From Anaerolineales bacterium (lineage in GTDB: Bacteria > Chloroflexota > Anaerolineae > Promineifilales > Promineifilaceae), in contig WTJY01000201.1 in assembly GCA_011524645.1 (NCBI GenBank), positions 1 to 49,051 of the forward strand: a DNA stretch of 49,051 nucleotides, read 5' to 3'. Below are positions 34,671-40,411 of this stretch, piece by piece (the stretch's first letter is position 1; the number at the start of each line of letters is the position of its first letter). Both the position numbers and the translations under genes were made by a program. The notes below the pieces were generated by a model. That model ran no database searches. It had not been told where the DNA came from and saw only the letters and a program-made list of their open reading frames with translations.

Positions 34671-34859
34671 GGAAACTGCTAGGAAGAAAGCGATGATCAT
34701 GAGACATGAAGCTGTTTTCCTTTGATTATTATCCTGCAATTCGAGCGAATGATTTATCGCTCAGGCAATCTAACCATGCTACACTTCGACAGTCAACGAG
34801 GATGTGACGAAACAAATCACACAAACAGTTTTAGAGCCAATCAGCAAGAGGAGAATTTG

Positions 34860-37817
34860 ATGAAAGTTGTGGTGGTCGCCCATAAAATGGTGGGCAAACA
34901 GTTGTATTTGGTTTTGATGGGGTTTGACGGCCGTGTTTATCGCACCGTTGCCCCACCCTACCCGCATATGATCGGGCAAACGATCACCATTGAAATGGAA
35001 CCGGCTGCGCACCCTCCTCACACGGAAACGATTACCGTGACGCATCAAATTCCCCAAGCACCGGTCGACGACACGGCCGTTTTTATCGCCCAAAACGGTG
35101 GGCTATGTACCGGTCCGTTGGGGCAACAATTTAACCGATTGACGCAAAAAAATGAGGTTCAAGCCCGTTTTGTCTCTGAGGCGAAAGGGATGCCGGAGCG
35201 GAGTACGATTTTTTGGCAGGTGGATCGGCCGTTAAAGCGGATCGTGCAAGGGAAAAGAACCCGATATCACTATCCCGATGGGACGCGACTGCCGTTTGTG
35301 GCGGCCGATGCGAAAACGGCCGTGGCGGAAATCCCCGCCAAAGCGATTCTTTGCCTAACACTGGCACCACGCTGGCAGCCGAAAAATCAACCGGAGATCG
35401 AACCACGCTGTTATGTGCAAATTGCGGGTTGGTTTGCGCCCCCAGTGATTCCCCAGCTTCCGAGCGAACCACCCAGTGCTGATATAGATGAGATGACGGC
35501 CGATTTTCCACCCGATTTATATGATGATCCGTTTTCGGCCGAGCCGTTTTTTGATGAACCCCCTGACTTTGCCGATCTGCCCCCCGCCTTTGATGATTTC
35601 GAGTTGCCTTCAGATAGCGCGGTGCTCATCGAAGCGGATTGGCGGCCGTTGGCGACCGGTACGCCCCAAGAAACATTGCAACAGGTCTTTGGGTATGACG
35701 CTTTTCGGACGATGCAGGCGGATGTCATCGATAATGTGTTGAATAAGCAAGATACCTTGGTCATTATGCCGACCGGGCAAGGGAAGTCGTTGTGTTATCA
35801 GCTGCCTGCGCTCCACTTTTCAGGGATCACAATTGTGGTTTCCCCGCTGATTTCGCTGATGATCGATCAGGTTCAGCAGCTTAAAGAGATTGGCGTTGCG
35901 GCCGCCACATTGAATAGCAGTATGCCCCGCGCGGAACAAAGCCGGATTATCGGGGAGTTGTTACACGGCCGTCTTAAGCTGTTATATATTTCGCCAGAAA
36001 CTTTGTTGCGGGCGCGTACGTTACAACTGCTATCACAGTGTCAGGTCGATTGCTTTACCGTTGATGAGGCCCACTGTATTTCTGCGTGGGGGCATGATTT
36101 CCGTAAAGAGTACCGTGAATTGATGCAGGTACGTAGCCGTTTCCCCTCGGCCGTATGTGTCGCCCTTACCGCTACCGCAACCCAGCGTGTGCGCCAAGAT
36201 ATTAGCCAAACCTTGGGGATTCCCCGCTCAAATCAATACGTGGCGAGCTTTGATCGCCCCAATTTGCATCTGTCTGTCCAGCTTTTACAAAATGCAGATC
36301 GCCAAGTGGCGCAGTTTCTCAAAGCTCATCAAGGGGAAGCGGGAATTGTCTATTGTCCCACACGGAAGCTGGTTGATACGTTGACCGATCAGTTGGAGCA
36401 ACAAGGGTACCCGGTCCTGCCTTACCATGCGGGTCTGCCGGATGGTGTACGCAAACAGAACCAAACTCGCTTTATTTATGAAGATGGCTTGATCATGGTG
36501 GCGACGGTGGCGTTTGGGATGGGGATTAATAAGCCGAATGTCCGTTGGGTGTTGCATTTCGGGTTGCCCAAAAATATAGAGAGCTATTATCAGCAAATCG
36601 GCCGTGCCGGTCGTGACGGGCTAGATGCTCATTGCCTGATGATCTTTAGTTATCAAGATATTCGCACCATTAAATACTTTATTAGTCAAGGGGCCGAGGA
36701 CCAGCAGCGGGGGGCGCAAATGCGTTTGGATGCCTTGATCGCCTATGCGGAAGCGGCCGTGTGCCGCCGTCGGCCGTTACTGGACTATTTTGGGGAGGGG
36801 TACAAAAAAGAAACGTGTACCGATATGTGTGACAACTGCCAAGACACCCGCCAATTGGTTGACATAACTGTTATGGCCCAAAAATTCTTGTCCTGTGTGC
36901 GACGCACCGGTGAGCGGTTTGGCATGAGTCATGTGATCGATGTTTTGCGCGGTTCTCGCTCTGAAAAGATTTTATCGCGCGGGCATGACACGCTGAGTAC
37001 CTACGGAATCGGTTTGGAATTTAGCAAGAAAGAGTGGCAGTTTTTCGGCCGTCAGTTCCAACAACTGGGATTATTGAGCCAAGATGCCCAGTTTGGGAGC
37101 CTGATGTTGACCGATTTGGGCCATAAAGTGATGCGTGGGGAGTCGCTAATGGGGCATATGCCGGAAAAACAAACGGCCGTGGAACCGATCGGCCGTACTC
37201 CGATGCCAACCGACTATGACAGCAAGCTGTATGAAATTGTGCATGCGAAACGGGGGGATTTGGCGCGTGAAGCTGGCTTGCCCCCTTATGTCGTTTTCTC
37301 TGATCGGACATTGGTTGATATGGCTTTGCGTTTTCCCCAATCGCGCGATTCGTTTGCCCAGTTGTATGGGGTGGGGCGGGCGAAGCTCGATAAGTATGCG
37401 GATATCTTTTTGCCACTGATCCAAGCCTATTGCCAAGAGCATGGTTTGAATGAAGTGGCGATCCCGAAACCGGCCGTGATGAGCCGAACCGGACATAAAT
37501 CCCGTAGTGAAGAGGTCTGGGAAGCGTATCAAGATGGTGAATCGGTTATCGATTTGGCGAAAAGATACGGGGTGAAAAACCATACGGTGCTCAATCACCT
37601 ATGGAAAGCGTTCCAAGCGGGCCACCCGCTTCGCTTTGATGCAGAGCTGGTGGAGATTACCCATTTATCGGCCGAACAACAGGACCAAGTCTTAGAGGTT
37701 TTTGCCGAGCATGGGACCGATATGTTGAAACCGGTTTTTTCGGCTTTGGGGGAATCTGTCTCCTATGCCGATCTGCATGTGATGCGTTTAATCGCGATTA
37801 GCCAACCATCAAACTGA
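34860..37817 (+). CDS. recQ: RecQ-family DNA helicase with novel N-terminal region
   Basis: A 985-aa 3'-5' DNA helicase. I chose ATG 34860 because GAGGAG lies just upstream, shortening the open frame by 46 residues. Residues 1-275 are not RecQ-like: a beta-rich part starting MKVVVVAHKMVGKQLYLVLM and then an acidic Pro-rich linker. The helicase has MPTGQGKS (303-310), DEAH (402-405), and QQIGRAGRDG. A four-Cys zinc site follows (from about 633, ending CDNC), then winged helix, HRDC (about 787-860) and a C-terminal HTH (SVIDLAKRYGVKNHTVLNHL). Role in recombination and fork repair. Confidence 0.94.
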   Translation: MKVVVVAHKMVGKQLYLVLMGFDGRVYRTVAPPYPHMIGQTITIEMEPAAHPPHTETITVTHQIPQAPVDDTAVFIAQNGGLCTGPLGQQFNRLTQKNEVQARFVSEAKGMPERSTIFWQVDRPLKRIVQGKRTRYHYPDGTRLPFVAADAKTAVAEIPAKAILCLTLAPRWQPKNQPEIEPRCYVQIAGWFAPPVIPQLPSEPPSADIDEMTADFPPDLYDDPFSAEPFFDEPPDFADLPPAFDDFELPSDSAVLIEADWRPLATGTPQETLQQVFGYDAFRTMQADVIDNVLNKQDTLVIMPTGQGKSLCYQLPALHFSGITIVVSPLISLMIDQVQQLKEIGVAAATLNSSMPRAEQSRIIGELLHGRLKLLYISPETLLRARTLQLLSQCQVDCFTVDEAHCISAWGHDFRKEYRELMQVRSRFPSAVCVALTATATQRVRQDISQTLGIPRSNQYVASFDRPNLHLSVQLLQNADRQVAQFLKAHQGEAGIVYCPTRKLVDTLTDQLEQQGYPVLPYHAGLPDGVRKQNQTRFIYEDGLIMVATVAFGMGINKPNVRWVLHFGLPKNIESYYQQIGRAGRDGLDAHCLMIFSYQDIRTIKYFISQGAEDQQRGAQMRLDALIAYAEAAVCRRRPLLDYFGEGYKKETCTDMCDNCQDTRQLVDITVMAQKFLSCVRRTGERFGMSHVIDVLRGSRSEKILSRGHDTLSTYGIGLEFSKKEWQFFGRQFQQLGLLSQDAQFGSLMLTDLGHKVMRGESLMGHMPEKQTAVEPIGRTPMPTDYDSKLYEIVHAKRGDLAREAGLPPYVVFSDRTLVDMALRFPQSRDSFAQLYGVGRAKLDKYADIFLPLIQAYCQEHGLNEVAIPKPAVMSRTGHKSRSEEVWEAYQDGESVIDLAKRYGVKNHTVLNHLWKAFQAGHPLRFDAELVEITHLSAEQQDQVLEVFAEHGTDMLKPVFSALGESVSYADLHVMRLIAISQPSN

Positions 37818-38086: not shown

Positions 38087-40411
38087 ATGGTAGCAGAACA
38101 TGTAGACCCATCGGGGATCGAATTTTTTGCACAAGTGGATCGTTACCTTTCGGCGAAGGACCAAGCAAAGGTAAGGGATGCTTTTGAAGTCGCCAAAGTG
38201 CAGCATGGCGAGGAACGGCGCAAATCGGGAGAGCTATTTTTTACACACCCCCTAACTGTAGCAACTTATCTGTCGACTTATTATTTGGATGCATCCGCAT
38301 TGGTGGCCGCATTACTACATGACGTTGCTGAAGATACCAATATGTCGGTGGAAGCGATTTGTCAGCAATTTGGTGAAGAGGTCGGGCAGATTGTGGATGG
38401 TCTGACTAAATTTGATCGAGTCACGGCCAAGGCGAAGCTCGGCCGTGAGCTAACGCCGGAAGAGGTCAAAGAAGCGACCACATTTAAGCTCTTTGATATG
38501 ATGACTAGCGATATGAGGATTGGGATCGTTAAGATATTTGACCGCTTACACAACATGCGCACTATTCGAGCCACACCCCCTCACAAACAAAAGATTAAAG
38601 CCCGAGAAACCCTTTCGATCTATGCGCCACTCGCCAATCGTTTGGGGATGTGGAAAGTAAAAAATGAACTGCAAAGTATTTCTTTCGGCATCCTCAATCC
38701 TGAGCGATACGGTATGTTGTGTTATTTGTTGGCGGAGCGAGAACAGCGTTATAAAGAGATCTATCAAAATTTTTCAGATGAAGTGAATCGGCTGCTTCGT
38801 GGTGCTGGGCTGTCGGTGGTTGATGTATTTCCGGCTGAAGGTGATATTGAATCTCAATATAATATATTGGCACATGAAGAACATGGGGATGCCTATATTC
38901 GGGATGCTCAGCCTAATTTGGTGGTTTTGTTAAAGCGGACAGAAGAATGTTATAACGCACTGTACCATATTCACACCACTTGGCGACCGGTGCGCGACCA
39001 AATGAAGGATTATATCGGTGCGCCCCGTACCAATTTGTATCGATCTCTTCACACCGCTGTTGTCTACCGTGGGGTGCCTCTCAAAATCCAACTCCGTACT
39101 GAAAACATGCAAATCGAATCCCAATTGGGTGTTTTGTCCCGTTGGCAGAGCAAGAAACGGCCGGATGTGTGGTCTGTCGAGTCGCGCCAGCGTGTAGATG
39201 ATATGTTGAACAACATCAGTGTGAGTATCAAAGAGGAAGTAGAAGAGCTGGGTGAAGGGGTACGTCGGGTGATTGATGACTTCTTTACCAATCAGATCAT
39301 CGTCTATACGCCGGAAGGGGATAAAAAAGAGCTTCCGGCCGGTGCGACCCCTATCGATTTCGCCTATAAGGTCCATACAGCCGTTGGTCATAGCTGTCGT
39401 GGGGCAACCGTTGATAACAAACAGGTTCCTCTGACCTATAAATTAAAAGACGGGCAGATTGTCAATATTAAGAGGCATGGCAAAGAGCCACAGCGGTCAT
39501 GGTTAGACGATAGTTTAGAGTATGTACAGACCACCACCGCAAAAGCGGCCTTACGCCGTTGGTTTCGTAATCTCCCAGAACTGCGTGCGATTACTCAGGG
39601 GAAGCGTTTGCTTGTTAAAGAGCTTGGCATGCTAAACGAAAGTGATTACCCCCATCGCAAAGTGGGGAAGTGGTTTGGTTATGAATCGGAAGATGATCTC
39701 TATTTCGCTTTGGGGCGCGCCGAGATTTTGCCGACTGAAGTGGGGACAAAAATTTTAACTGAGAATTGGACACTGTTGCCACAAGTCCCTGATGAGCAGG
39801 TTGCTGATACCGTACGTACCCCGCAGGGGGAACTAATTATGGTTGAGGGAGGTGGCGGTCGTGAGCTACGCTTATGCCGCATTTGTGACCCACGCCCTGG
39901 GGATGAAGTGACCGGTTTTATTCGACGTGATGAAGTGGTTACGATGCATCGTATCGGTTGTCGTACGTTGAGCGCGGATGATATGCGTGACGGCCGTAGT
40001 TTGCGTCTTCGTTGGCGGGAGGACGGCCGCGAGGAGCAAACACAGGGGAGACCGGTGACAATTCAGGTGAGCGTACACGACCGCAGCGATTTACTACATG
40101 ACATTACCCATATGATGCACGAGGAGCAGGTTAATATTATGGCCGTTTGTGCTAGTTCCCGTGATCATCGCGCTTCAATTGTGCTCAGCGTAGCGGCCCA
40201 TAGCCCGCGCCAAGTGGTTAGTTTGCTGCATCGGATTCAAGCCTTGGTTAACGTGATTAAGGTCTGTTATTTAGGGGAATCTGTACCGACCAACGGTGTG
40301 TCTAGCGCCCAAATTTGTTGCCACCATGCGACTTTGCACGAGGCTGAACACCGGACCCCGATACCTTATCTAAATGGAAGCGGCAAGCCGAAACAGTTTG
40401 TCGCCAAGTAG
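38087..40411 (+). CDS. rel: RelA/SpoT homologue, hydrolase intact, synthetase probably inactive
   Basis: A 774-aa long RSH protein with the usual order: HD hydrolase, synthetase, TGS, helical, CC zinc-finger and ACT domains. The HD site is complete: His54 (FTHPL), His78-Asp79 and Glu82-Asp83 (HDVAEDT), Asp152 (FDRLHNMRT). The synthetase fold remains (CYNALYHIH, DYIGAPRTNLYRSLH), but the ATP-binding RxKxxxS loop is replaced by residues about 250-260, the Asp of the DL.R segment is missing (276-282), and EVQIRT is KIQLRT (333-338). The TGS domain has GATPIDFAYKVHTAVGH; CC has LCRICDPRPGDE. It should degrade (p)ppGpp and probably not make it. GGAG precedes ATG 38087. Confidence 0.93.
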   Translation: MVAEHVDPSGIEFFAQVDRYLSAKDQAKVRDAFEVAKVQHGEERRKSGELFFTHPLTVATYLSTYYLDASALVAALLHDVAEDTNMSVEAICQQFGEEVGQIVDGLTKFDRVTAKAKLGRELTPEEVKEATTFKLFDMMTSDMRIGIVKIFDRLHNMRTIRATPPHKQKIKARETLSIYAPLANRLGMWKVKNELQSISFGILNPERYGMLCYLLAEREQRYKEIYQNFSDEVNRLLRGAGLSVVDVFPAEGDIESQYNILAHEEHGDAYIRDAQPNLVVLLKRTEECYNALYHIHTTWRPVRDQMKDYIGAPRTNLYRSLHTAVVYRGVPLKIQLRTENMQIESQLGVLSRWQSKKRPDVWSVESRQRVDDMLNNISVSIKEEVEELGEGVRRVIDDFFTNQIIVYTPEGDKKELPAGATPIDFAYKVHTAVGHSCRGATVDNKQVPLTYKLKDGQIVNIKRHGKEPQRSWLDDSLEYVQTTTAKAALRRWFRNLPELRAITQGKRLLVKELGMLNESDYPHRKVGKWFGYESEDDLYFALGRAEILPTEVGTKILTENWTLLPQVPDEQVADTVRTPQGELIMVEGGGGRELRLCRICDPRPGDEVTGFIRRDEVVTMHRIGCRTLSADDMRDGRSLRLRWREDGREEQTQGRPVTIQVSVHDRSDLLHDITHMMHEEQVNIMAVCASSRDHRASIVLSVAAHSPRQVVSLLHRIQALVNVIKVCYLGESVPTNGVSSAQICCHHATLHEAEHRTPIPYLNGSGKPKQFVAK

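Follow-up and report, generated by a model that had tools for sequence, protein, structure and literature searches.

A predicted hydrolase-only long RelA/SpoT protein and its synthetase-type partner in the Chloroflexota order Promineifilales

Can a full-length RelA/SpoT protein (long RSH) that has lost its synthetase site serve as a (p)ppGpp hydrolase only, and which protein of the cell would then make (p)ppGpp? This question is raised by a gene for a 774-aa protein in the window, i.e. the whole stretch of 49,051 nucleotides analysed here, from an Anaerolineales bacterium (GTDB order Promineifilales). The original prediction, made from the letters of the window, described a long RelA/SpoT protein with six domains and complete hydrolase residues in which the ATP loop, the conserved Asp and the Glu of the EVQIRT motif are gone, and offered two consequences: a need for a separate synthetase, or a cell lacking (p)ppGpp synthesis. 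Judged from its residues, the protein is very probably a SpoT[Hs]-type monofunctional (p)ppGpp 3'-pyrophosphohydrolase on a full long-RSH scaffold, paired with a RelA[hS]-like protein of the same genome (L001).

The reading frame is open, begins with ATG behind a GGAG-like ribosome-binding site and has a normal composition. TIGR00691 matched residues 32-726 with 501.3 bits (cut-off 499.2), and the Pfam cut-offs were passed by HD_4, TGS, RelA_SpoT and ACT_4. The helical AH/RIS model stayed below its cut-off (18.3 against 23.8 bits), and the corresponding helices are seen in the AlphaFold2 model. The domain order HD-SYNTH-TGS-helical-ZFD-ACT is that of a long RSH, as predicted (Table 1). Using Foldseek, the N-terminal half was matched to long-RSH folds (TMt of about 0.9 to 7oiw and 1vj7), while the arrangement of the whole chain matched no state (TM of about 0.4).

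Table 1. Features of the long RSH gene in the window (positions are those of the window).
Feature	Position	Strand	Evidence
Predicted hydrolase-only long RSH gene (SpoT[Hs]-type)	38087..40411	+	774 aa; 39 aligned orthologues including the window's own
HD (ppGpp hydrolase) domain	38180..38653	+	PF13328, 131 bits; 11/11 scored residues
HDxxED motif, residues 78-83, intact	38318..38335	+	Residue table
DRLHNMRT motif, residues 152-159, intact	38540..38563	+	Residue table
Pseudo-synthetase domain, residues 240-357	38804..39157	+	PF04607, 56 bits, model positions 31-110 only
Lost ATP/G-loop, residues 250-260 (canonical RPKHIYSIYRK)	38834..38866	+	Alignment
Retained guanine-side block NLYRSLH (N316, Y318, H322)	39032..39052	+	N, Y and H in 39/39 orthologues
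K333 replacing catalytic Glu (B. subtilis E324)	39083..39085	+	K in 38/39, R in 1/39 orthologues
TGS domain	39296..39469	+	PF02824, 71.8 bits
Helical (AH/RIS) region	39524..39760	+	PF19296, 18.3 bits, below cut-off; helices in model
Zn-finger/CC domain, CxxC...HxxxC	39875..39961	+	Alignment
ACT/RRM domain	40049..40264	+	PF13291, 41.5 bits

The Zn-finger of the hydrolase type has the form CxxC...HxxxC, whereas Rel/RelA and L001 carry adjacent cysteines (CC); this may have a bearing on ribosome binding. The gene lies between genes for a RecQ-like helicase (34722-37817) and an AlkZ-like DNA glycosylase (PF06224; 40436-41683). Neither neighbour was present beside the orthologues in the short flanks examined, and synteny thus gives no support.

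All 11 scored hydrolase residues are present (R45, H54, H78, D79, E82, D83, D152, R153, H155, N156 and T159), as had been predicted. Replacements in the synthetase domain, given in B. subtilis Rel numbering followed by that of the 774-aa protein, affect the basic residues of the ATP/G-loop (R241 to A250, K243 to G252, R250 to N259, K251 to I260), the adenine-stacking arginine (R269 to V279), the D264 column (A274) and the catalytic glutamate (E324 to K333). With its synthetase site lost, the protein is not a bifunctional Rel[HS]. The Glu-to-Lys change sits in a gap-free alignment block and is unambiguous, and every one of the 39 orthologues carries Lys or Arg there, which excludes a chance change. 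The predicted loss of the ATP loop and of this Glu stands. The claim that the conserved Asp is gone has to be held with more caution, as D273 adjoins the expected column and the reading hinges on the local alignment. The orthologues show R, K, S, D or G at this neighbouring position, and from this variation D273 is judged to be no conserved catalytic Asp.

A weak synthetase activity like that of E. coli SpoT might still be kept by means of displaced residues, with D273, one residue from the D264 column, as the metal Asp, and Y318, Q335 and R337 are indeed retained. We regard this as highly improbable, because the G-loop and the adenine-stacking Arg have been lost and Lys stands in place of the catalytic Glu, whereas E. 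coli SpoT itself retains nearly all of these residues (R250 being Cys). E324V serves as a synthetase-inactive mutant in B. subtilis Rel (PMC7098656), and in RelSeq either D264G or E323Q alone abolishes synthesis (PMC13299517); the 774-aa protein should therefore not synthesise (p)ppGpp.

Searching the genome with PF04607 gave exactly two RSH synthetase domains, that of the 774-aa protein and that of L001, a second full-length long RSH of 741 aa on contig C11. The synthetase set of L001 is complete (GRSKHIYSLHRKM, YDLHALR, EEFDDYIANPKPNGYSSLHT, EVQIRT, AAHWAYK) and its hydrolase is degraded, the ED being lost (HDTLML) and RLHNMRT reading SLNDLLV, such that the two proteins have mirror-image catalytic defects. 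The need for a separate synthetase is thus well supported, and the predicted synthetase is L001, not a RelP/RelQ-type gene: no small alarmone synthetase was found in the genome by the PF04607 search, both matches being long RSHs. A cell without (p)ppGpp synthesis, the other consequence considered, is contradicted by the complete synthetase residues of L001. Intact HD residues, a lost synthetase site and a RelA[hS]-type partner in the genome together make the 774-aa protein, by its sequence, a predicted member of the SpoT[Hs] type.

A third HD_4 match in the genome (L116:1429-2022) is a stand-alone HD protein of 197 aa, a candidate small alarmone hydrolase that may share the hydrolase role.

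The pair was followed through 56 genomes of the order. Counted by score, the synthetase type was found in 53, the hydrolase type in 54 and both in 51; the five genomes without both types are drafts of 62-94% completeness. A contig scan using the single 774-aa protein as query gave no match, and one using the orthologue alignment as query worked. For the alignments, 39 hydrolase-type proteins (the window's included) and 41 synthetase-type proteins were used, and pairs were verified residue by residue in 36 genomes. All HD residues are intact in the 38 hydrolase-type orthologues that cover the HD region (38/38). Every synthetase-type protein (41/41) has R241, K243, K251, D264, R269, N306, Y308, H312, E324, Q326, R328 and W344; among their HD residues E81 is kept in 6, D82 in 2 and N148 in 2, and the Mn ligands mostly remain (H53 in 37, H77 in 30, D78 in 37 and D144 in 33 of the 41). 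Surveys of the class and the phylum gave one long RSH in most genomes, and 16 sequences from the class and 5 from elsewhere in the phylum, chosen as single-copy Rel, are bifunctional by residues, with the exception of one H147D.

The genome of the window is a draft of 534 contigs with 4% contamination, and an odd gene in such a genome could be due to assembly error, a pseudogene or binning contamination. The chance of this is negligible: the frame is open, the composition is normal, and the defect is common to 38 other orthologues, a set which refutes an artefact. Moreover, the divergence of the hydrolase type mirrors that of its partner across the 36 genomes. Pairwise distances of the two copies correlate with a Mantel r of 0.943, and none of 2000 permutations was as high; the two copies have thus evolved in concert.

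Mean identity within the hydrolase type is 0.61 for HD and 0.45 for SYNTH; the synthetase type shows the inverse (0.43 and 0.60), and the single Rels have 0.55 and 0.57. As there has been free drift at some catalytic positions (241, 251 and 264, for example), the pseudo-SYNTH domain might be merely decaying and without a role, the HD alone being of importance. This is unlikely in view of the selection on the domain: for the four most closely related pairs that were informative, all of them congeneric, dN/dS is 0.05-0.18, i.e. clearly purifying; more distant pairs were saturated. Twelve of its residues are invariant (C278, Y279, H286, W289, N306, Y308, H312, T313, R328, M332, G339 and W344), the guanine-side N, Y, H, R and W among them in 39/39, and the change of E324 is to Lys or Arg in every orthologue. 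All of the twelve except M332 and G339 are assigned to the guanine side, in contrast to the lost ATP side. The His near the catalytic Glu is replaced by Arg or Lys in 38 of the 39, and the Gln by Arg in 37 of the 39, Gln being retained in the window's protein.

This conservation suggests a nucleotide-sensing or structural regulatory domain, and we infer either a pocket that holds a guanine nucleotide without catalysis or a basic interface put to a new use. More specifically, and only tentatively, the domain may be a nucleotide sensor that sets the hydrolase rate through non-catalytic binding of GTP, GDP or (p)ppGpp. In the 774-aa protein the residues of the predicted pocket are kept (N316, Y318, H322, R337 and W353), and throughout the type the catalytic Glu has become Lys or Arg and the Gln usually Arg.

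Phylogenetic trees were made with E. coli SpoT and RelA included and Moraxellaceae sequences left out. The hydrolase type forms a single clade in the careful tree (100/100), and the synthetase type sits among the Rels of the class. E. coli SpoT fell outside the hydrolase-type clade, which is accordingly not a set of gammaproteobacterial SpoT orthologues, and the split in the order is apparently independent, on these trees, of that in Proteobacteria. The arrangement of the order's two copies as each other's sisters obtained a p-AU of 0.07.

A bifunctional Rel (L071) and a hydrolase-only long RSH (L070) occur together in one Anaerolineae genome, G057. L070 joins the hydrolase-type clade with 99/97 support and carries the same Glu-to-Lys change; its branch is long, and the tree of the C-terminal half places it outside the clade. 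Searches centred on G057 gave no further genome of its family or order. G057 may represent an intermediate stage and suggests an order of events in which the synthetase was lost in a duplicate first and the hydrolase in the other copy later.

In another Chloroflexota class, three families (f60, f52 and f78; L087-L091) carry a tandem pair of long RSHs. The HD of one member is dead; the other member has an intact HD, with damage of varying extent in its synthetase site (R241W in f60, Q or D for E324 in f78 and f52). The RSHs of these families form a clade of their own (100/100). One origin for the hydrolase copies of the order and the tandem hydrolase copies was rejected (p-AU 0.0008), and long RSHs have thus been split on at least two occasions within Chloroflexota, in addition to the split in Proteobacteria.

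L108 (G005), L109 (G033), L110 (G104) and L111 (G049, of the same genus as the window) represent a third RSH-like type, about 1100-1200 aa long; the genome of the window itself has none. In these proteins a C-terminal AAA/STAND-like NTPase (nSTAND1/ATPase_2 matches in three examples; a P-loop such as GARRIGKTSLL) is fused to a long-RSH module that has lost its synthetase site and whose hydrolase site is likewise lost or else damaged. About a dozen of the order's genomes, and a few from the class, have frames of this fusion size. PADLOC gave weak matches only (E of about 0.003-0.009), and no description of an NTPase-fused RSH was found in a literature search.

The most plausible history of the pair, a SpoT[Hs]-type hydrolase with a RelA[hS]-like synthetase, would begin with duplication of an ancestral bifunctional Rel. 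One copy would have lost ATP binding in SYNTH and the catalytic Glu, the other (the L001 line) the catalytic ED and the substrate residues of HD, and both copies would have been kept. In the cell, L001 would make (p)ppGpp and the 774-aa protein would degrade it. The pseudo-SYNTH domain would tune the hydrolase, probably through contacts between domains like those of A. baumannii SpoT; a guanine nucleotide bound in the retained half-site may also contribute. The A. baumannii protein is itself a long RSH with a dead SYNTH that works as a Mn-dependent hydrolase, its pseudo-SYNTH being regulatory (PMC9974481).

Atkinson et al. (2011) gave only Rel[HS] and small hydrolases for Chloroflexi, and the complete split for Moraxellaceae only (PMC3153485). 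Our literature search, which covered few subscription papers, found no report of a Chloroflexota split and no biochemical data on an RSH from this phylum. A full separation of making and breaking (p)ppGpp into two long RSHs, described for Moraxellaceae, is here predicted from sequence to be fixed across a Chloroflexota order, and it recurs in the separate tandem version of the other class. Such recurrent splits are natural replicates for studying what causes a bifunctional regulator to divide and for which purpose a dead synthetase domain is retained.

Among the closest known systems is the SpoT[Hs] type of Moraxellaceae, with A. baumannii SpoT (PDB 7qpr) as its example. It is likewise full-length, its HD is intact, its pseudo-SYNTH is dead and a RelA[hS] protein accompanies it as the synthetase (PMC9974481, PMC3153485); it belongs to a different phylum. 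In A. baumannii SpoT the guanine-stacking Tyr is replaced (Y to N), GDP is not bound, and a nucleotide-sensor role is not known; the Chloroflexota hydrolase type keeps Y, N, H and R at 100% and has Lys or Arg for the catalytic Glu. The column count of the alignment showed neither the shortened alpha6-alpha7 loop reported for Moraxellaceae nor a shortened Core like that of A. baumannii SpoT. L001 resembles RelA[hS] of Beta- and Gammaproteobacteria, both being long RSHs in which the synthetase residues are complete and the HD is degraded. Most members of the order's synthetase type have lost ED, RLHN and T while keeping the Mn ligands H53, H77, D78 and D144, whereas in E. coli RelA the Mn ligands are also lost. 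The bifunctional Rel[HS] of other Chloroflexota, presumed to be the ancestral form, shares the same domain order and differs from the pair in having both active sites complete in one protein.
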